Shown: positions 5,391-25,579 of the stretch, piece after piece | Position numbering within the stretch: position 1 is the first letter of the stretch | Layout of the letters: the number at the start of each line of letters is the position of its first letter | NCBI GenBank assembly: GCA_903930515.1 | Contig: CAIYYW010000094.1 | Coordinates: forward strand, 1-30,477 | DNA: 30,477 nucleotides | From: an uncultured delta proteobacterium | GTDB lineage: Bacteria; RBG-13-61-14; DRUE01 | Reading direction: 5' to 3' | Program-made: the position numbers and the translations under genes | Notes under the pieces: model-generated | The model's database searches: none | Seen by the model: only the letters and a program-made list of their open reading frames with translations | What the model was told of the DNA's origin: nothing

Positions 5391-6347
5391 ATGAGTCACG
5401 GGGGCAAAGCGCTGTTGACGGTCCTGGCTTTCGCGGCGATTTTTGGTCTGCGGCCGGAAGCCAAGACAGGAACCGGCGACGATTCGGAAAGCGGGTATCT
5501 GTTCGCGTATTTCCAGCAAGGCCGGGCGTCAATGGGCGACGGCCTGCACCTGGCCTGGAGCAAGGACGGGCTGGATTGGAAAAAGCTCAATCGCGGCAGA
5601 ATTTATTTCAAGCCGGGTCAGGGGATGTTCCGCGATCCGTTCATCCTGCAAGGCCCGGACGGAACTTTTCATCTGACCTGGACCAGTTCGCGGAAATCCA
5701 TTGGATACGCCAATTCCCGCGATTTGAAAAATTGGACCGGGGAAAAATATCTCCCGGTAATGGAACCAGAACCAGGCGCGCTTAACTGCTGGGCGCCGGA
5801 AATGTTTTATGACGCAGATAAAAAAATATTTCTGATCTTCTGGTCAACCACCATCCCGGGCCGATTCCCGGCAACCGACTCCGCCGGGGATTCTAAATAC
5901 AACCACCGGATCTACTATACGGCCACCACTGACTTTGAAACCTTCAGCCCGGCCAAATTGTTTTTTGACCCTGGTTTTAATTGCATAGACGCCACCCTGA
6001 TCAAGGCCGGGGAAGAATATTTCCTGTTCCTTAAAAACGAGACGCTCAAGCCGGCGAGAAAATATATTGTTTCCGCCCAAGCCCAAAACCCGGAGGGTCC
6101 ATTCGGCCCGGTCTCAGGCCCGATCACGCCGGGCTGGTCGGAAGGTCCGTCCCTGATCAGGATCGGCGAGCAATGGTTTTTATATTACGACCTCTATGCC
6201 AAGAAGAATTATGGACTGTCGGTTTCGCGCGACTTGAAGCAATGGCAGGACCTGAGCGGGAAACTTAAAATGCCCAGGGGCGCCCGGCATGGATGTGTTT
6301 TTAAGGTTCCCCGCCGGATTTTATTGGACCTGAGCCATGCCCAATGA
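5391..6347 (+). CDS. Secreted GH43-like glycoside hydrolase
   Basis: 318 aa from the ATG at 5391, ten bases after GGGGAGG; an in-frame start at 5355 precedes that site and is unlikely. A signal peptide is present (KALLTVLAFAAIFGLRPEA). The protein has the five-bladed propeller pattern of GH43 (arabinanases, xylosidases, galactosidases): blade motifs such as LAWSKDGLDW, IGYANSRDLKNW and LSVSRDLKQW. The three acidic positions of the family can be assigned: Asp82 in RDPF (base), Asp200 in CIDAT (pKa modulator) and Glu251 in SEGPSL (acid). The exact substrate cannot be told from sequence. It is convergent with glnB, with only 27 bp between the stop codons. Confidence 0.75.
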   Translation: MSHGGKALLTVLAFAAIFGLRPEAKTGTGDDSESGYLFAYFQQGRASMGDGLHLAWSKDGLDWKKLNRGRIYFKPGQGMFRDPFILQGPDGTFHLTWTSSRKSIGYANSRDLKNWTGEKYLPVMEPEPGALNCWAPEMFYDADKKIFLIFWSTTIPGRFPATDSAGDSKYNHRIYYTATTDFETFSPAKLFFDPGFNCIDATLIKAGEEYFLFLKNETLKPARKYIVSAQAQNPEGPFGPVSGPITPGWSEGPSLIRIGEQWFLYYDLYAKKNYGLSVSRDLKQWQDLSGKLKMPRGARHGCVFKVPRRILLDLSHAQ

Positions 6348-6374
6348 ACATCGCAAGCCGCGGGGAATGCCGAA

Positions 6375-6713
<339 letters not shown>

Positions 6714-6814
6714 CTATCCCTCCCTCGCGATTTCGGGCCGCAGCCACTCCTGCCTGCGGCATCAGGAAGACACCGGGGGCTGCCCGGCTTTCCGCGTTTC
6801 TCGTTCCTCCTGGA

Positions 6815-7543
6815 TCAAGTCCTTGCCAAGGCCAGTGCGCAGACCTTTTCCGCGCCGGCCTTTCTCAAGGTTTTCGCGGCCTCATTGATCGTGGTCCCGG
6901 TGGTGATCACATCGTCAATCAACAAGATATTTTTTCCCTTAATCCGCTTCGCGCTTTTCACCCGGAAACTGTTCTTGAGATTTTCCTTGCGCTTGGCCGC
7001 GCTCAGGCCGGCCTGCGGTTCAGTATTTCTGGTTCGGATCAAGGCCCCGGGCGCAATCGGGATTCCGAGCTTCCCGCTCAAGGGCCGGGCCAGGATCAAG
7101 GCCTGGTTGTATCCCCGTTTCAAAACCCGGACCCAATGCAGCGGGATCGGAATAATCAAATCAAAACGCTCCGCATTGAATTCCCGCTCATACACCCGGA
7201 CCAAACTGTCAGCCATCCAGTCCAAAAAATAAAAGCCCCGGCTATATTTAAAGCGATGAATAATGCTCTTCATCGGATCCTGATACTTGGCAAAAGCGCG
7301 CGCCTGAGCAAAGGCCGGCTGATGCCTTATGCAATCGCCGCACCGCCGGTCCGGAACTCCTCCGTCTAATTTCTTTCCGCAAACCGCGCACCGGCTGGTG
7401 CCGATCCGCTCAATCTGGTCCAGACATTCCGAACAAAGCGGCAGGGATTCCTGCGCGACCCCATCGCAGAGATAACAAAATCCCGGAAAAACCAGCTCCA
7501 GGGCCAGGCCGGCCAATCTATTACCGCCCACCTCAGGCCCCAA
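6815..7543 (-). CDS. comF: ComF family phosphoribosyltransferase-like protein
   Basis: Up to 242 aa. The N-terminal part has four Cys pairs (about residues 23/26, 37/40, 52/55, 68/71) for zinc binding, followed by a type I phosphoribosyltransferase fold with the PRPP loop NILLIDDVITTGTT (~205-218) and the typical FKYSRGF, PIPLHW and RGYNQA segments. ComF acts in DNA uptake in competent bacteria; its precise reaction is not established. The start is uncertain: the longest frame begins with TTG at 7543, 11 bp inside the apgM gene, with GGAG just upstream; a GTG at 7531 is another choice. The overlap with apgM indicates co-transcription. Confidence 0.9.
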   Translation of the reverse strand: MGPEVGGNRLAGLALELVFPGFCYLCDGVAQESLPLCSECLDQIERIGTSRCAVCGKKLDGGVPDRRCGDCIRHQPAFAQARAFAKYQDPMKSIIHRFKYSRGFYFLDWMADSLVRVYEREFNAERFDLIIPIPLHWVRVLKRGYNQALILARPLSGKLGIPIAPGALIRTRNTEPQAGLSAAKRKENLKNSFRVKSAKRIKGKNILLIDDVITTGTTINEAAKTLRKAGAEKVCALALART

Positions 7544-8741
7544 ATTTCTCCAGCTTGAGCGCGTTGGCCATTGCCAGTCCCATCAGGTATTTCATCTTGA
7601 ACCTGCCCAACCCGCCCTGGCTGCAAGATCGCTCCCCGAATTCCCGGGCCAAATCCGGCCGGATATTTTTGCTCCAGAGCAGCACCGGCACCGGATGCCA
7701 GGAATGAGCCTTGAGCCGCGAGGGTGTGGAATGATCCCCGGTAATGACCAGAACCTCCGGCTTGAGCTTGACCGCCTTCGGGATCTGCTTGTCAACCGCC
7801 TGGATCACTTCAACCTTGCGTGCCCAATCCCCGTCCTCCCCGGCGCTGTCCGTCTTCTTGATGTGCACGAAAAAGAAATTGTATTTGGACCAATTCTCTT
7901 TCAGCACCGAAAATAAATCGTCCATCTCCGCCCCCACTTCCAAGACCTCCATCCCCACCAGCCGGGCCAACCCGCGATACATCGGATACTGGGCAATCGC
8001 GCAGGCTTTCAACTTGTAAATATCGTTGAACTGCGGATATTCCTGGAAAGCGGCGAAGCCCCGGAACAAAATCATATTCGCCGGCTTCTCCTCTTTCAAA
8101 ATCGGTTTCGCCTGAGCCAGAAATTCGTCCACTAACCTCACCGTCTTCCGGCTTGCCTCATCCTCCCCGACCATCAAAAGCGGCTCCTTGCCCACAACCT
8201 GCGGATCGCTGTCCGCGATCTTGTCGCCCAGCCCCTTGGCCCGGAACACCAGCGCGGCGCGGTGCTCCCGGACCGGCTCCAGGAAATATTCCGCTCCGGA
8301 TATTTTTACCCTGGCCTTGATCTTCTCGCAGAGTTTGGCGTTAAGCTCGGTCGAGATCCTGCCCGCCCTCCGGTCCGTGACCAACCCCTGGCCGTCCACC
8401 GTGCAGAGATTCAGCCGGATCGCAACATCGCCGATCTTGAGCGGAAAGTCTATGCCCAAGGCCTCCAATACCCCACGGCCGATCAGGAATTTAATCGGGT
8501 CATACCCGAACAATCCCAGATGCCCCGGACCCGATCCCGGAGTGATCCCTCTCGCGACCGGATCCGCCAGACCCAGCGCCCCCTCCATGGCCAGCTTGTC
8601 CATATTCGGCTTCTTCGCCATCTCAAGCTCGGTCTTGAACTGGGGACCGACCGGCAACCCGCCCAACCCGTCCATCACCAATAGCACGATCTTGGAATCG
8701 GTCTCAATCGCCTGCTTCTTAATCAGTTCCTGTATCTCCAT
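7533..8741 (-). CDS. apgM: 2,3-bisphosphoglycerate-independent phosphoglycerate mutase, archaeal type
   Basis: 402 aa from the ATG at 8741, which has GAGGA five bases upstream; an upstream in-frame codon at 8768 lacks such a site. It belongs to the alkaline phosphatase superfamily: VLLVMDGLGG (Asp24, metal), GITPGSGPGHLGLFGYDP with the predicted phosphoserine Ser70, and the C-terminal metal site ITGDHSTPS. ApgM interconverts 3- and 2-phosphoglycerate in glycolysis and gluconeogenesis in the cytoplasm. Length and motifs match the archaeal-type family and not the larger GpmI. It is the first gene of the probable apgM-comF-glnB group. Confidence 0.93.
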   Translation of the reverse strand: MEIQELIKKQAIETDSKIVLLVMDGLGGLPVGPQFKTELEMAKKPNMDKLAMEGALGLADPVARGITPGSGPGHLGLFGYDPIKFLIGRGVLEALGIDFPLKIGDVAIRLNLCTVDGQGLVTDRRAGRISTELNAKLCEKIKARVKISGAEYFLEPVREHRAALVFRAKGLGDKIADSDPQVVGKEPLLMVGEDEASRKTVRLVDEFLAQAKPILKEEKPANMILFRGFAAFQEYPQFNDIYKLKACAIAQYPMYRGLARLVGMEVLEVGAEMDDLFSVLKENWSKYNFFFVHIKKTDSAGEDGDWARKVEVIQAVDKQIPKAVKLKPEVLVITGDHSTPSRLKAHSWHPVPVLLWSKNIRPDLAREFGERSCSQGGLGRFKMKYLMGLAMANALKLEKFGA

Positions 8742-13801: not shown

Positions 13802-14506
13802 TCAGGAGGGGCGGACCGATGATTGGGATGTTTTCGAGCTGCTTTTTCCGGGTCTGCCGACGGGCAAAGGCCGCAAGCGTTTTCCCAGCGAGATCTCGAT
13901 TTTGCTGAGAAAAGCGTCATTGCCGAGCGGTCGGCCGCGGCGGGTGTGGGAACGCAATGCGGTGATTTTGCCTGATTCTTCATTCCTTGACAGAAAGGCC
14001 TTCCATTCCGAGGGCGATAAAATTTCTTGCCATTGCTTCAGTTCCAAAAGACCGAGTGGATCTTTGCCGCTGATGTGCGCACGGGCGCTGGACCATTTAT
14101 ATTGCCAGGCCGGACTTGCCATTTTTGCGCGCATCGGGTTGCGCTCGATATATGCCATGGCCGCGAGCAGATGTTTTTCATCCAGGGCGCACGAATAGAA
14201 ACGGCTCTGCCAAAGGTGGCCGGTCCGGCCGTGGAGCCGGTTGATGTACTGGGTATAAACCCAGTTCGCCCGGCCAACTGCATTGGCCAGCGAATGCGGC
14301 TCGGCAGGAACCGCGATGAGATGGACATGGTTCCTCATCAGACAATAGCCGAGAATTTGCAGACCGTTTTTGCGCGACAGGTAATTCAGAATGGCCAGGT
14401 ACCGTGCGTAGTCGTCATCAACGAAGAAAACATCCTGCCGGTTGTTTCCGCGCTGGACGATATGATGCGCGCATCCGGGAATGACAATTCTCGCTACCCG
14501 AGGCAT
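13802..14506 (-). CDS. REP-associated tyrosine transposase (Y1_Tnp, IS200-like)
   Basis: 234 aa. The Y1 single-strand transposase signature is intact: PGCAHHIVQRGNNRQDVFF at the start, LGYCLMRNHVHLIAVP with the metal-binding HVH at residues 60-62, and VYTQYINRLHGRTGHLWQSRF with the candidate catalytic Tyr84 or Tyr87, followed by AYIERNPMRA. These enzymes nick and join single-stranded DNA at REP hairpins as a HUH nuclease. A minus-strand TATAAT lies at 14518-14513, only six bases from the ATG, and no Shine-Dalgarno is evident, so expression may be leaderless or weak. The C-terminus is rich in Arg, Lys and Ser. Confidence 0.92.
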   Translation of the reverse strand: MPRVARIVIPGCAHHIVQRGNNRQDVFFVDDDYARYLAILNYLSRKNGLQILGYCLMRNHVHLIAVPAEPHSLANAVGRANWVYTQYINRLHGRTGHLWQSRFYSCALDEKHLLAAMAYIERNPMRAKMASPAWQYKWSSARAHISGKDPLGLLELKQWQEILSPSEWKAFLSRNEESGKITALRSHTRRGRPLGNDAFLSKIEISLGKRLRPLPVGRPGKSSSKTSQSSVRPS

Positions 14507-19893: not shown

Positions 19894-21396
19894 ATGGCGG
19901 ATGAATTCCTGCTGAGCATGACCAATATCAGCAAACAGTTCCCGGGTGTCCGCGCCCTGGATAATGTCCATCTCAAAGTTAGAAAAGGGACCGTTCACGG
20001 CCTCATGGGCGAGAACGGCGCCGGGAAGTCCACCCTTATGAAATGCCTGATCGGGATCTATACCCCCGATTCCGGCACAATCATTTTCAAAGACGAGAAA
20101 ATAAGCGTCCCCAACACCCATTACGCGCTTTCCAAGGGCATTTCCATGATTCATCAGGAATTGAACCCGATTCCTCATATGACCATAGCGGAAAATATCT
20201 TTTTGGGGCGGGAAACTAGGACTTGGTATGGTCTGGTTGATATGAAGAAAATGAACCAGAGGACGAAAGGGTTGCTCGATCGTCTCGCGATCAAACTTGA
20301 TCCCAATACGAAGATGGTAGACCTCAGCATCGCCAATACTCAACTGATCGAGATCGCCAAGTCGGTATCATACGATTCCGATTTGATCGTTATGGATGAA
20401 CCCACCTCCGCAATTACGGAAGCGGAAGTCAGGGTGCTGTTCAAGACTATCCGTTCCCTGAAAGAACAGGGCCGATCAATTATCTATATCACGCACAAGA
20501 TGGATGAGGTATTTGAGATCACCGATGAGATCACGGTGTTCCGGGATGGAAAGTATATCAGCACGGACCGGACCAATACGCTGACGCGGAACCTGCTCAT
20601 CCAAAAAATGGTTGGGCGAGAGCTTAGCGATATGTTCCATAAAGAACCGGCGAATATCGGCGAAACCGTTCTTGAGGCGAGGGGCCTCACGGGCCGCAAG
20701 TTCAAGAATGTCAGTTTTGATGTCAAACGGGGAGAAATATTCGGAGTTGCCGGGCTGATGGGGGCGGGGCGGACCGAACTGCTTGAGGCCGTATTCGGAG
20801 TAACCAGACTGGATTCCGGGGAAGTATTCATTGACGGGAAGAAAGTAGAGATCCGGTCGCCCGCAGACGCGATCCGCCTGGGATTGGCTCTCCTGACTGA
20901 AGACCGGAAACTCACCGGACTTTATATAAACGCGATGGTCAGGGACAATATGATAATCGCGAATATGAAATCGTATATGCGGGGTATTTTTATAGATTTC
21001 CGCAAAATAACATCCGATTGCGGGAAAATGCGCGATCAATTGCGAATAAAGACCCCGAGCCTGAAGCAAATAATAAAGTACCTTTCGGGCGGCAATCAGC
21101 AAAAAGTTCTTATTTCGCGCTGGCTGCTGACCGAACCGAGCATTTTAATCCTGGACGAACCAACGCGCGGTATTGATGTCGGAGCCAAGGCCGAAGTCCA
21201 CCGACTTATGACGGAGCTCACGCGTCAAGGCAAGACCATAATAATGATCTCTTCCGAGCTGCCTGAGATCCTGGGAATGAGCGATCGGATCATGGTTATG
21301 CATGAAGGAGATAAAATCGGCGAGCTAAGCAGGGCGGAAGCGACCCAGGAGAAGATCCTGCACTTGGCTACCGGAATGAGCCTGGCTGCGGCATGA
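19894..21396 (+). CDS. Sugar ABC transporter ATPase (RbsA/MglA type)
   Basis: 500 aa with two fused nucleotide-binding domains. The first has Walker [10 protein letters not shown] (~46-54), the degenerate signature [15 protein letters not shown] and Walker [10 protein letters not shown]; the second has a degenerate Walker A (GLMGAGRTE), the signature LSGGNQQK and Walker [17 protein letters not shown]. This is the usual plan of CUT2-family importers, where one ATP site is active. It starts 16 bp after the binding-protein gene with GGGGGAGG upstream and works with the permease that follows. Substrate specificity lies in the binding protein and permease. Confidence 0.95.
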
Positions 21397-21415
21397 AAGA
21401 GTAAAGGGGGCCAAA

Positions 21416-22450
21416 GTGGACAGGGGCATAGTGGAAACGACAAAAGAAAGCAAGACCAGCCGGCATTTATCCCGGGCATTCATCAATAATATATTGCGGA
21501 AATATGGGATATTCCTTATTTTCATGGGGATGTGCATCATCGCTTCATTATTGTCACCCGCTTTCCTCACCAAGATTAACCTGATCAATATTGTGCGGCA
21601 GATTTCCATAATCGGCCTGATCGCCTTGGGGGTCACCGGCGTCATCGTCACTGCAGGCATTGATCTCTCGTCAGGGTCCGTCCTCGGACTCGCCTGCGTC
21701 GTGGCGGCCTCATTCTCGCAAATGCCGACCGGCTCCCGGGTCCTCTATCCGGCTCTCGCCGGGAATCCGGTTTATGTCTCAATTGTCGCCGGCTGCCTCG
21801 TGGGGATGCTTGCCGGAGCTATCAATGGCTTCCTCATCGCCAAGACCAAGATCCCGCCCTTTATCGCGACCCTGGGAATGTTCTCCGCGGCCCGAGGCGC
21901 GGCAATGCTGTTCACGGGAGGGCGGCCAATTTCAAACCTTGGGGATGATTACAATTTCATCGGTCAGGGCGACCTCTACGGTCTGCCGATTCCGATTTTG
22001 ATCCTGGTGGTTATGGCGATCGTAACGCATATTCTGTATTCGCGGACGAAGTTCGGCAAATATATATACGCCATCGGCGGGAATGAGCAAGCCGCGCATG
22101 TCTCGGGGATCAATGTCACGAAGTATAAATTATTGATCTATGTGTATGCCGGCTTCCTGGCGGCCCTGGGTGGAATAGTGGTGTCATCCCGGATCGGATC
22201 GGGACAGCCGGGACTAGGCGTCGGGTACGAATTTGACGCCATTACCGCGGCGGTCATCGGCGGCGCCTCGCTGTCCGCGGGCGGGATCGGGACTATCCCG
22301 GGAACGATCATAGGCGCGCTCATCATCGGCGTGCTCAATAACACCCTTGATCTCACCAATGTATCCGCGTACTGGCAGCAGATCATTAAGGGCGCAATCA
22401 TCGTTGGCGCGGTTATTCTGGACCAGCAGAAGAACAAGGGCAGTAAATAG
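21416..22450 (+). CDS. Sugar ABC transporter permease (RbsC type)
   Basis: 344 aa, GTG start at 21416 with AAGGGGG five bases upstream (a second GTG at 21431 is possible). After a ~30-residue cytoplasmic start there are about eight to ten membrane segments ([34 protein letters not shown] and others). The CUT2 permease signatures [25 protein letters not shown] and [20 protein letters not shown] are present. It forms the channel with the ATPase and binding protein. The gene is 19 bp from the ATPase gene. Confidence 0.94.
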
Positions 22451-22501: not shown

Positions 22502-22551
22502 CTGGATTGAGCAGGAGTTCTTATGAGAAGTAGTAAAGGGGGATGACCATT

Positions 22552-23388
22552 ATGATTGACAAGCGGCGTTTTGGCCTGAACCGGATCATCGCGCCTTCAT
22601 TGGGACTTGAAGGTTTCTTTGAATTCGCGGACTCCGTGGGCATCCGAAAGGTGGAGCTCCGCAACGACATTGGAAGCCGCAATGCCGTGGACGACCTTCA
22701 GCCCGCCGCCGCAGCGAAAATGGCCGCGGATATGGGCATTGAAATCATCTCTATCAATGCCCTGCAAAAATTCAACCTCTATTCGGTCCGGGAAAAGGCT
22801 ATGTCGGAGCTCTCGGCCCTGCTTGAACTGGCAAAGGCAATCGGCTGCCACGCCGTGGTCCTTTGCCCGAACAACGATCCCACCGATGCGCGCACCCCGG
22901 CACAGCGCGCCGCCGAGACCACCGATGCGCTTTCGGCGTTCGGCCCTCTTTTCACCAAAGCCGGCATCCTTGGGCTGATTGAGCCGCTCGGGTTCGCTAT
23001 CTCATCGCTCGCCTCGCTGGTCACGACCCAGGAATCCATACGCAAGTCTGGTTTCGCCTGTTATCGGATCGTGCACGATACCTTCCACCACTACATCGGG
23101 CCGGACGACCCAGCCGTTCTCGGCGGCGCTTACGATGTTTCCAATACCGGCCTGGTCCACATTTCAGGCGTTGAAAGCGACCTCCCCACCGCCGACTACC
23201 GTGACCAACACCGCGTCCTGGTCGGCCCGGCCGATCATATGAACAGCAAAGAGCAAATATTGCGTCTGGACCGGCTAGGCTTTGCAGGCGATTTCTCTTT
23301 TGAACCCTTCTCGCCCGCAATCCAGAAGCTGAGCCGGGACAAACTCGCGGACGCGCTCCGGCAAAGTATTGACTTCATCCGGTCGTGA
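22552..23388 (+). CDS. MocC/IolE-like TIM-barrel isomerase or dehydratase
   Basis: 278 aa from the ATG at 22552, nine bases after AAAGGGGG; the ATG at 22543 is too close to that site. The AP_endonuc_2 (xylose isomerase-like) barrel is clear: FGLNRIIAP, GIRKVELRNDIGSRN, ADMGIEIISINALQKFN, GCHAVVLCPNND, GLIEPLGFAISSL, RIVHDTFHHYIG, LVHISGV and DFSFEPFS. This matches MocC of the rhizobial rhizopine locus and related inosose-processing enzymes; metal ligands Glu (IEPLGF), Asp-His (VHDTFHH) and the final Glu (FEPF) are present. In context it probably acts on the keto-inositol made by the IolG-like enzyme; the exact reaction is inferred. Its 3' end is partly repeated twice downstream. Confidence 0.87.
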   Translation: MIDKRRFGLNRIIAPSLGLEGFFEFADSVGIRKVELRNDIGSRNAVDDLQPAAAAKMAADMGIEIISINALQKFNLYSVREKAMSELSALLELAKAIGCHAVVLCPNNDPTDARTPAQRAAETTDALSAFGPLFTKAGILGLIEPLGFAISSLASLVTTQESIRKSGFACYRIVHDTFHHYIGPDDPAVLGGAYDVSNTGLVHISGVESDLPTADYRDQHRVLVGPADHMNSKEQILRLDRLGFAGDFSFEPFSPAIQKLSRDKLADALRQSIDFIRS

Positions 23389-23395
23389 GGCGGCA
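23338..23395 (+). repeat. 58-bp direct repeat, first copy (3' end of mocC-like gene)
   Basis: This covers the last codons and stop of the mocC-like gene plus seven bases after it. It matches 23894-23951 at 54 of 58 positions. The hicB-hicA unit lies exactly between the two copies. Confidence 0.85.
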
Positions 23396-23409
23396 GCGAA
23401 AAAGTCGGG

Positions 23410-23437
23410 TTGACTTATTCAAGGGGTCGGCTATCCT
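23410..23437 (+). promoter_or_regulatory. Promoter of hicBA
   Basis: TTGACT (23410-23415, 5/6), 16-base spacer, TATCCT (23432-23437, 4/6), followed by AAAAGGA seven bases before the hicB ATG. It starts only 15 bp after the end of the direct repeat, so the promoter belongs to the inserted unit. Confidence 0.5.
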
Positions 23438-23458
23438 TATTTTTAAAAGGAATCGCGC

Positions 23459-23665
23459 ATGAAATATGATGTCTTCATAACCAAAGAGGGTGATTGGTTT
23501 ATCGCAGATGTGCCAGCTCTGCCCGGCTGCATGTCCCAGGGACGGACCGAAAAGGAGGTTCTGGCCAACATCCGAGATGCCATCCAGGGATACCTCGATG
23601 TCCTCAAGGAACAAAACCGCGAAGCGCCCAAGACCAAGCACCTAAAAGTAGCCGCGGGTGGATGA
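23459..23665 (+). CDS. hicB: HicB-like antitoxin
   Basis: 68 aa. The HicB fold is evident: MKYDVFITKEGDWFIADVPALPGCMSQGRTEKEVLANIRDAIQGYLDV, the partially degraded RNase H-like core of HicB antitoxins. No DNA-binding domain follows (only ~20 further residues), so this is the short form. It binds HicA and blocks its RNase activity. Antitoxin-first order, ATGA overlap with hicA and a private promoter show a complete two-gene module. It interrupts the region between the mocC-like and iolG-like genes. Confidence 0.9.
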   Translation: MKYDVFITKEGDWFIADVPALPGCMSQGRTEKEVLANIRDAIQGYLDVLKEQNREAPKTKHLKVAAGG

Positions 23666-23880
23666 AGCGGCTCGCTAATATCTCCGGCCATAAAGCTGTC
23701 AAGATCTTCTGCAAATTCGGTTATCAGGTCGCCCGCCGGACGGGAAGTCATATCATCCTCAAGCACCCCGAAAAGCCGCCCTTGGTCATCCCAGACCATA
23801 AAGAAGTCGCCCCGTCCCTGCTCCGAACCCAAATCCTCCGCGCCGGCCTCACCATCAAGGAATTCGTGGAACATAAATAA
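23662..23880 (+). CDS. hicA: HicA-like mRNA interferase toxin
   Basis: 72 aa starting at the ATG that overlaps the hicB stop (ATGA). It has the double-stranded RNA-binding-like HicA fold: NISGHKAVKIFCKFGYQVARRTGSHIILKHP with the catalytic histidine in GSH, then LVIPDHKEVAPSLLRTQILRAGLTIKEF. HicA cleaves mRNA to stop translation when not bound by HicB. The length is normal and no key residue is missing, so the toxin is probably active. Only 13 bp separate its stop codon from the second 58-bp repeat. Confidence 0.9.
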   Translation: MKRLANISGHKAVKIFCKFGYQVARRTGSHIILKHPEKPPLVIPDHKEVAPSLLRTQILRAGLTIKEFVEHK

Positions 23881-23893
23881 TCCCATACCCCGC

Positions 23894-23951
23894 GACAAAC
23901 TCGCGGACGCGGTCCGGCAAAGTATTGAATTCATCCTGGCGTGAGGCGGCA
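23894..23951 (+). repeat. 58-bp direct repeat, second copy
   Basis: A second copy of the mocC-like 3' end, with four substitutions, an intact stop codon (in the mocC frame it would end SIEFILA) and the same bases after the stop. It has no start codon and is not a gene by itself. Confidence 0.85.
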
Positions 23952-24000
23952 TCCCTAAGCCCGCTATTTCTTCAGCTTCAGATTCTATAGTTCCAAACAA

Positions 24001-24048
24001 ATTGCAGCAAGTATCTTAGTATCTTGATACTAAGATACTTGCTGCAAT
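24001..24048. repeat. Perfect 23-bp inverted repeat with a two-base loop
   Basis: Arms 24001-24023 and 24026-24048 are exact reverse complements around TT. Each arm also holds a direct repeat of AGTATCTT. No terminator-type T-run follows. It lies between the two mocC fragments and has no gene beside it. Confidence 0.9.
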
Positions 24049-24104
24049 CGGTCAGGACCAAAAGGATTTGAGCGGAAGGGTTTAGCGAGAGCGAGGCGCC
24101 GGGC

Positions 24105-24227
24105 CCTGGTCGGCCCGGCCGATCGTATGAACAGCAAAGAGCAAATCCTGCGTCTGGACCGGCTAGGGTTTGCGGGAGATTTCTCTTTTGAACCCTTCTC
24201 GCCCGCGATCCAAAAGCTGACCCGGGA
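24105..24227 (+). pseudogene. Second mocC-like fragment
   Basis: About 123 bp matching 23217-23339 with some nine substitutions (about 93% identity). It keeps the reading frame of MNSKEQILRLDRLGF..DFSFEPFSPAIQKL but lacks the upstream three quarters of the gene and the last ~16 codons. At CCGGGA it runs directly into a transposase remnant. Confidence 0.88.
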
Positions 24228-24413
24228 AAGAATTCCATTGGAGCGATCATCCGGGGCTTTAAGGGAGCCTGCACGAAACGGATCAATCAGATTTGGGGCA
24301 CGCGGGCAAAGGCGGTGTGGCACCGAAATTATTATGAGCGCGTTGTGAGGACGGAAGAGCTGGAGCGGATTCAAAGATATATCAAAGAAAATCCAAGGAA
24401 ATGGAATAAATAA
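24225..24413 (+). pseudogene. C-terminal remnant of a second RAYT-type transposase
   Basis: In a frame different from the mocC fragment, 62 codons read GKNSIGAIIRGFKGACTKRI, then NQIWGTRAKAVWHRNYYERV and EELERIQRYIKENPRKWNK before TAA. This is the typical C-terminus of REP-associated Y1 transposases (pattern WQRNYYEHxIRxEEELxRIxxYIxxNP). The N-terminal HUH domain is missing, so it cannot be active. It belongs to a subgroup different from the intact gene at 13802-14506, and a REP-like cluster follows it. Confidence 0.85.
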
Positions 24414-24423
24414 TTTTATGGGA

Positions 24424-24465
24424 GGATTACCAATCCGCCCGTACGGGCGCATTGGTCATGCGCCC
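24424..24465. repeat. REP-like palindrome cluster
   Basis: Three stems in a row: GGATT-ACC-AATCC (24424-24436), the perfect palindrome CGCCCGTACGGGCG (24436-24449) and GGGCGCA-TTGGTCA-TGCGCCC (24445-24465). It directly follows the RAYT remnant, as expected for the end of such an element. Confidence 0.75.
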
Positions 24466-24474
24466 ATTCCTTTG

Positions 24475-24553: not shown

Positions 24554-25579
24554 ATGAAAGCGCCGGTTAACATTGGCATCATCGGGGTTGGCAGGATCGG
24601 CAAGATCCATGCGGAAAATATAGTTTCTTCAATTTCCCAGGGCCGACTCAAAGCGGTCGCCGACCTTAATTTGACGCCGGAAATAGAAGGTTGGGCGAAG
24701 AACCTTGGCGTTGCAACCATCGTGAAGGAGCCGGCTACTCTCCTCGCGGACAAGGATATTCAGGCTGTTCTCATTTGCTCTTCCACAGACACCCACGCGG
24801 ACTTGGTGGTTGCGGCGGCCAAGGCCGGCAAGCATATTTTCTGCGAAAAGCCTGTGGACCTCACGGTGGCCAAGGTGGCCGCGGCCCTGGATGCTGTGAA
24901 GAAGGCAGGGGTCAAGCTGCAGGTGGGATTCAATCGGCGCTTTGACCATAACTTCCGGCGCGTGCGCGAACTGGTAGAGTCCGGCGCGGTCGGCACTCCC
25001 CATCTGATCAAGATCAGTTCACGCGACCCCGCGCCGCCGCCCGCCAAGTACAGCGCGGTCTCAGGCGGGATCTTCCTTGATATGACCATCCACGATTTTG
25101 ATATGGCCCGTTTCCAGGCCGGGAGCGAGGTTGTTGAAGTCTATGCCGCGGGCGCCGTTCTCATTGATGAAGCGATCGGGAAGGCCGGTGATGTGGACAC
25201 GGCAATTGTTACTCTGCGTTTCTTGAATGGCGCCCTGGGCGTGATTGACAACTCGCGCAAGGCGGCATACGGCTACGACCAGCGCGTGGAAGTATTCGGA
25301 TCCAAGGGCGCGGCCGCGGCTGAGAACGACGCGCCCAGCACGGTCAAGCTCTCCAACGAGTCCGGGGTGATCGGCGACAAGCCCCTCTACTTCTTCCTTG
25401 AGCGATACCAGGGGTCCTTTATCTATGAAATGCGCGCGTTCCTGGATGCGGTCATTGCAGGAAAGCCGACCCTGGTCACCGGCGAGGATGGGCTTCAGGA
25501 CCTCCGCGTCGGCCTGGCCGCGAAGCTGTCCCTCGCCGAACGGCGCCCGGTCAAGCTCTCGGAGATTCCTCTCAAGTAA
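24554..25579 (+). CDS. iolG: Inositol 2-dehydrogenase-like oxidoreductase (Gfo/Idh/MocA)
   Basis: 341 aa from the ATG at 24554, with GGAGG six bases upstream. The N-terminal Rossmann fold reads NIGIIGVGRIGKIHAENI, followed by FCEKPVDL with the catalytic Lys, GFNRRFDHNF, and the MocA-fold segment GGIFLDMTIHDFDMARF with the Asp/His pair. IDNSRKAAYGYDQRVEVFGSKG is typical of IolG. The enzyme oxidises myo-inositol to scyllo-inosose with NAD. Substrate range in this family varies (scyllo-inositol, chiro-inositol), so the exact cyclitol is inferred. It follows the broken region 23396-24480 and is read in the same direction as the transporter genes. Confidence 0.9.
   Translation: MKAPVNIGIIGVGRIGKIHAENIVSSISQGRLKAVADLNLTPEIEGWAKNLGVATIVKEPATLLADKDIQAVLICSSTDTHADLVVAAAKAGKHIFCEKPVDLTVAKVAAALDAVKKAGVKLQVGFNRRFDHNFRRVRELVESGAVGTPHLIKISSRDPAPPPAKYSAVSGGIFLDMTIHDFDMARFQAGSEVVEVYAAGAVLIDEAIGKAGDVDTAIVTLRFLNGALGVIDNSRKAAYGYDQRVEVFGSKGAAAAENDAPSTVKLSNESGVIGDKPLYFFLERYQGSFIYEMRAFLDAVIAGKPTLVTGEDGLQDLRVGLAAKLSLAERRPVKLSEIPLK

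Follow-up and report, generated by a model that had tools for sequence, protein, structure and literature searches.

A hicBA toxin–antitoxin pair between copies of a mocC-like gene end, and gene-end copies beside hicBA at unrelated genes

The window, the whole analysed stretch of 30,477 nucleotides, carries a mocC-like sugar isomerase gene that looks like a member of an inositol operon, with a sugar ABC transporter upstream and inositol 2-dehydrogenase downstream. Behind it lie two small genes, hicB and hicA, preceded by a promoter-like element (Table 1). The product of hicB matches HicB_lk_antitox (PF15919) with 33.8 bits at a cut-off of 27, and that of hicA matches HicA_toxin (PF07927) with 51.6 bits, above the curated cut-off of 27. 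The two genes are adjacent and overlap in an ATGA at 23662-23665. The predicted HicA contains a GSHIIL motif including the conserved histidine and yields a weak PDB match to HicA 4c26. By its Pfam domains and gene overlap, the pair (23459-23880) is a predicted HicBA type II toxin–antitoxin (TA) system. Promoter and two genes make up a minimal unit of ~490 bp. The initial annotation had described a cassette devoid of a recombinase gene; in agreement with this, neither a tyrosine nor a serine recombinase was found among the larger window ORFs scanned, and such an enzyme could act in trans.

Table 1. Features of the mocC region in the window, and surveyed loci with gene copies beside hicBA.
Feature	Position or locus	Strand	Evidence or remark
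mocC-like sugar isomerase gene, intact	22543..23388	+	ORF; Pfam PF01261 (AP_endonuc_2 TIM barrel) 5.2e-21
Repeat A, first copy: part of mocC 3' region	23211..23339	+	91% vs 24099-24227
Repeat B (first copy): 3' end of mocC through 7 bp past its stop codon	23334..23395	+	92% vs 23890-23951
Promoter-like TTGACT-16-TATCCT	23410..23437	+	sequence; similar element ahead of congener's homologous hicBA (L013)
hicB antitoxin, 68 aa, short form	23459..23665	+	ORF; Pfam PF15919 4.2e-8
hicA mRNA interferase toxin, 72 aa	23662..23880	+	Pfam PF07927 1e-13; overlaps hicB stop
Repeat B' (second copy): mocC end again, stop codon included	23890..23951	+	9 bp past hicA
Spacer Y with 46-nt-arm palindrome (23978-24071)	23952..24098	.	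~89% vs DNA directly upstream of congener iolG
Repeat A', displaced piece of second mocC end	24099..24227	+	91% vs repeat A
C-terminal remnant of IS200-like (RAYT-type) transposase, fused to A'	24228..24413	+	Y1_Tnp 2.9e-4
Imperfect palindrome adjoining transposase remnant, probably REP-like	24418..24467	.	sequence
Inositol 2-dehydrogenase (iolG), next operon gene, right-hand landmark	24554..25579	+	TIGR04380 469.6 bits
Urocanase (hutU) hicBA array	L291 (G005:C15:48000-66000), ~5409-8484
Urocanase (hutU) hicBA array	L292 (G292:C107), ~820-2160	minus
Urocanase, gene-end copy beside hicBA	L188
pckA, gene-end copy beside hicBA	L117
hypD, copy beside hicBA	L151	opposite strand
nuoG start, copy beside hicBA within nuoF–nuoG operon	L129
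Acetyltransferase gene start, copy beside hicBA	L027
Large gene start, copy beside hicBA	L161
5S rRNA behind 23S, copy beside hicBA	L152		intact copy 93 bits, second copy 54 bits

The 3' end of the mocC-like gene (22543-23388), the proposed target of the insertion, is present twice as the direct repeat B/B', which spans 62 bp with 57 identical positions (92%). Among 200,000 random ungapped 62-mer pairs drawn from the window, the best reached 39/62 and none reached 57, ruling out a chance origin of the repeat. Repeats of 58 bp with 54/58 identity had been noted before, each with the mocC stop codon. These values are exact for 23338-23395 versus 23894-23951 (4 mismatches), as part of the full 62-bp repeat, and the stop codon is present in both B and B'. 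It likewise follows from the sequence, as had been pointed out, that recombination between the repeats would drop the toxin pair and leave mocC complete. The earlier description of the cassette as exactly bounded by the repeats holds apart from two short gaps: 14 bp (23396-23409) separate B from the promoter, and 9 bp (23881-23889) separate hicA from B'.

A larger repeat, A/A', which the initial annotation did not include, spans 129 bp with 91% identity, A being the part of mocC directly upstream of B. The second mocC end consists of two pieces in swapped order, A' ending and B' beginning at one and the same mocC position (~23334-23339). A plain tandem duplication of the mocC end alone fails to give the order A B hicBA B' Y A'. 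At 24228, A' is joined to the transposase remnant, whose Y1_Tnp match of 21.4 bits lies below the cut-off of 23. We rejected the transposase as the carrier of hicBA: the remnant is truncated at its N-terminus exactly at the end of A' and has little identity to the intact transposase of the window, which marks it as debris and not as a mover. The window contains one intact IS200-like (RAYT-type) transposase gene (13802-14506) and, 10 kb off, the remnant of a different one beside its palindrome (24228-24467); remnant (24228-24413) and intact transposase share 28% identity over 43 aa. Elsewhere in the window, a gene with RHS (YD) repeats occupies 499-2151.

The same-genus comparison comprises one genome, a lake sediment bin (G001, record CAIUDS01). 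The transporter is present in it at 92% identity, and its inositol dehydrogenase is preceded by the spacer palindrome; both A' and the transposase remnant are absent there. Its contigs break on both sides of mocC, and the mocC counterpart of the order-mate has 44% identity only. Because the congener's mocC lies in an assembly gap, where no empty site is readable, we infer the direction and timing of the event at mocC. A hicBA homologue of the congener (82% DNA identity) stands behind a different gene without such repeats, and its similarity to the window is limited to 23410-23880, that is, promoter and two genes. The spacer palindrome was dismissed as a cassette part: in the congener it lies upstream of the same iolG without an adjacent hicBA and is a member of a repeat family. 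The palindrome with AAGTATCTTAGTATC arms (window 23978-24071) is single-copy in the window's genome, and in G001 the family (contigs C15, C184, C565, C759) is often paired. A mir-1743 Rfam match in the spacer scored far under its cut-off and was discarded. The transporter part of the operon (window 19894-21651 versus G001:C241) is 92% identical between the two species, versus 74% for recG and 82% for DAHP synthase; judged by these identities, the inositol operon may have been exchanged recently between them.

A search of the hicA genes in G000, G001 and the order-mate G002 found further pairs with a copy of the neighbouring gene end behind hicA, and the survey below extends this anatomy to many unrelated genes. 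In G000, a copy of the recG end follows hicA (50 bp, 98%, 7 bp past the stop). In G001, a second end of DAHP synthase, LLRELKPLVKLSGRKL and stop, lies beside the intact LMRELKPLVKIEGKSL and stop, 5 bp past the hicA stop. The AmmeMemoRadiSam B gene of G002 has a gene-end copy of 36-40 bp, 12 bp past the hicA stop. For DAHP synthase an empty site is available, the gap between the two neighbours measuring 97 bp in G000 versus 675 bp with hicBA in G001. At recG, the insertion is common to G000 and G001 (hicB at the same place); the copy in G000 is near-identical to the G000 gene over its 50 bp and less like the G001 gene. By this comparison the recG copy looks younger than the hicBA insertion, or homogenised, and the case is the clearest evidence against one simple story.

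Searching 386 genomes for hicA matches gave 80 loci with up to 12 kb each and ~30 shorter ones, 104 of which were usable. A locus was scored when a direct repeat of at least 25 bp and at least 80% identity straddled hicA within 1200 bp. Such repeats straddle 18/104 hicA loci. At random positions of these loci the count was 27/3467 (p 5e-17), for small genes it was 4/142 (p 9e-5) and for cold-shock genes 0/29 (p 0.008); ParE toxins gave 4/29. A second sample gave 8/30 hicA loci versus 34/957 random positions (p 2e-5), and in none of these eight loci is the repeat clearly a gene end. Gene ends or starts make up only part of the repeats straddling hicA, and many of the repeats are dispersed and intergenic. 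The hicAB pair of E. coli K-12 has no such flanking repeats and was dropped as a model case. Among the gene-end cases, the length of the copy varies between insertions from 36 to 196 bp. At L129 (reverse strand, 1391-2077), hicAB sits in the nuoF–nuoG operon with the first 87 bp of nuoG doubled and nuoG intact. At L152 (5661-6382), hicAB follows the 23S–5S part of an rRNA operon and is itself followed by a second, degenerate 5S rRNA copy.

Several modules stand in a row behind urocanase. In G005, a 215-aa gene comes after the urocanase end, and next come four different hicBA modules with urocanase-end copies of 36-89 bp between them. In the sister genome G292, hicBA types IV and I follow urocanase in another order than in G005, and the copies there are longer and begin elsewhere in the gene. 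The same module thus precedes different copy starts in two species, which means that the copy does not belong to the module as a fixed component. Throughout these arrays, the distance between the hicA stop codon and the start of the copy is 0-3 bp. Altogether, 16 of 18 gene-end junctions have the copy starting at -16 to +12 bp from the last TA stop codon, the last gene being hicA or hicB, with pckA (118) and L161 (181) as the exceptions. The module alone, up to its own stop codon, looks like the unit.

We propose that the minimal hicBA unit was probably inserted directly behind the mocC stop with a long, variable target duplication, by which mocC was kept intact. The proposal draws on the anatomy at mocC and its recurrence elsewhere, more often than in the controls, as well as on the tight junction with the TA stop and on the one empty site, at DAHP synthase. 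The ~490-bp unit would land behind the stop codon, and the event would leave a second gene end on the far side. The joining step, whether duplication or import, is argued from anatomy and comparison; we infer that it was illegitimate, by template switching or by homology-assisted illegitimate recombination in which the incoming DNA brought along a gene-end allele of its own, because the differences between copies lie between those of a dead duplicate and those of a functional allele. Once formed, the repeat–TA–repeat unit could pass between relatives via ordinary homologous recombination at the gene end, and the addiction function may retain it, because recombination between the repeats would delete the antitoxin. 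The swapped order of A' and B' is not accounted for by a single insertion; a later or linked rearrangement would have split the second mocC end at one point and fused one piece to the transposase remnant. Together, the data suggest that such TA pairs move as minimal units, sparing the target gene by duplicating its end. More tentatively, with the chances somewhat against it, type II TA modules in general might be autonomous minimal movers: a unit closed by the stop codon of its last gene would enter at gene ends, duplicate or import a variable stretch of the gene end and so restore the gene. Repeated insertions would then build recombinase-free, cassette-like arrays, as behind urocanase with hicBA-I, -II, -III and -IV, each with a urocanase-end copy after it, and addiction would block the collapse of their direct repeats.

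It could well be, if somewhat short of an even chance, that the mocC end and hicBA of a related species recombined at mocC in a Campbell-type or homology-assisted integration, so that the copies are donor and native alleles and no duplication occurred at insertion. Consistent with such an origin, the counts of synonymous and nonsynonymous changes are 7 and 2 between A and A' and 6 and 2 between the nuoG copies; between B and B', on the other hand, they are 0 and 4. The pooled synonymous fraction, computed with L070 left out, is 0.53, compared with an expected 0.37-0.42 for a dead copy and 0.73-0.78 if both copies are functional. It lies above what a dead copy would give, with p from 0 to 0.025 according to the transition bias assumed, which favours donor alleles, but also below the both-functional one, which does not, and so falls outside both models apart from the edge of the dead-copy model. 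The copies are likely a mixture, some having begun as diverged alleles from donor DNA and then decayed. Furthermore, a crossover in long homologous DNA leaves the start of the copy at the TA stop unexplained. The same junctions weigh against an ordinary tandem duplication of gene end plus hicBA with later loss of the second hicBA, the TA merely guarding the repeat from collapse. Such a course explains why direct repeats persist around a TA and fits recG, where the copy is apparently younger than the insertion; it leaves unexplained both the 16 of 18 copy starts near the last stop and the mirror arrangement at gene starts (nuoG, acetyltransferase), and we regard it as unlikely.

The initial annotation had seen in hicBA a small insertion that regenerates its target gene's end, in the manner of integrative elements at tRNA genes. 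The insertion itself is supported by the recurrent anatomy and the DAHP synthase empty site; the likeness to tRNA-gene elements is not. A site-specific element that uses the gene end as its attachment site, with a recombinase in trans as at tRNA genes or integron cassettes, would explain the restored gene end and the cassette-like urocanase-end arrays, in which module order differs between two sister species. However, the targets are unrelated (protein genes, gene starts, 5S rRNA), the copies range over 36-196 bp with no shared core by eye, the same module stands before different copy starts in the two sister species, and the larger window ORFs scanned contain no recombinase domain. We therefore consider such an element improbable. 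An assembly artefact of the metagenome bin comes to mind, as the window is from a draft genome of 401 contigs. It is highly improbable: the junction identities of 3-6 bp are too short for a k-mer join, and the same anatomy is found in a single-contig genome (L161) and in independent bins.

The nearest process on record is insertion with long, variable target duplication, of the order of 100 bp, which has been deduced for restriction–modification (R-M) systems (PMC3874152; PMC3031569), and R-M insertion with long target duplication is attributed to Nobusato et al. 2000 (as cited in PMC2654758, PMC3874152) and Furuta et al. 2010 (as cited in PMC3874152). Like R-M systems, hicBA is an addiction-type gene pair with no known mobile element and with long, variable direct repeats of the target. 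In contrast to them, the unit here is a type II TA of ~490 bp whose repeats, often gene ends, begin at the TA stop, and modules can stack into arrays. In Microcystis aeruginosa PCC 7806, a ParDE-like TA by the MaOC1 gene is fenced by two identical 152-bp repeats (PMC7935541). There, too, a small TA follows a gene and lies between direct repeats. The Microcystis repeats, however, are located between genes and include an inverted repeat; they duplicate no gene end, and the copy begins 120 bp past the toxin stop (PMC7935541). The precedents are thus the R-M literature and this Microcystis TA; searches of the open-access literature turned up neither gene-end copies at hicBA nor urocanase-end arrays, which does not prove that none has been described. 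An insertion of the R-M type with long, variable target duplication fits hicBA better than a fixed attachment site. Integron gene cassettes with TA modules form arrays of small modules, each followed by a 60-100 bp repeat, in an order that varies between relatives. The hicBA repeat differs in being the host gene's own end with a variable start; no integrase was found among the window ORFs scanned, and by eye neither strand of the 62-bp mocC copy contains a GTTRRRY-type site (attC RYYYAAC/GTTRRRY). Integrative elements at tRNA or gene 3' ends regenerate the end of their target gene; unlike them, hicBA shows no fixed core by eye and no recombinase among the larger window ORFs scanned, and the element is the TA only.

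The long-standing question of how small chromosomal TA pairs spread in the absence of a carrier becomes testable by genome comparison through the reproducible footprint described here, a gene-end copy that starts from the TA stop: it marks insertion sites and predicts the empty site. It also suggests how a selfish pair can enter core operons (nuoF–nuoG, rRNA operon) harmlessly. Natural arrays of two to four modules are on offer for such work. In the same survey loci, other repeat pairs flank VapBC-like, second hicBA and DUF5615/DUF433-like pairs, named from their sequences. At L073 (G002:C82, 1639-2288), a RelBE-like pair lies between 37-bp repeats (92%), adjoining a hicAB pair.
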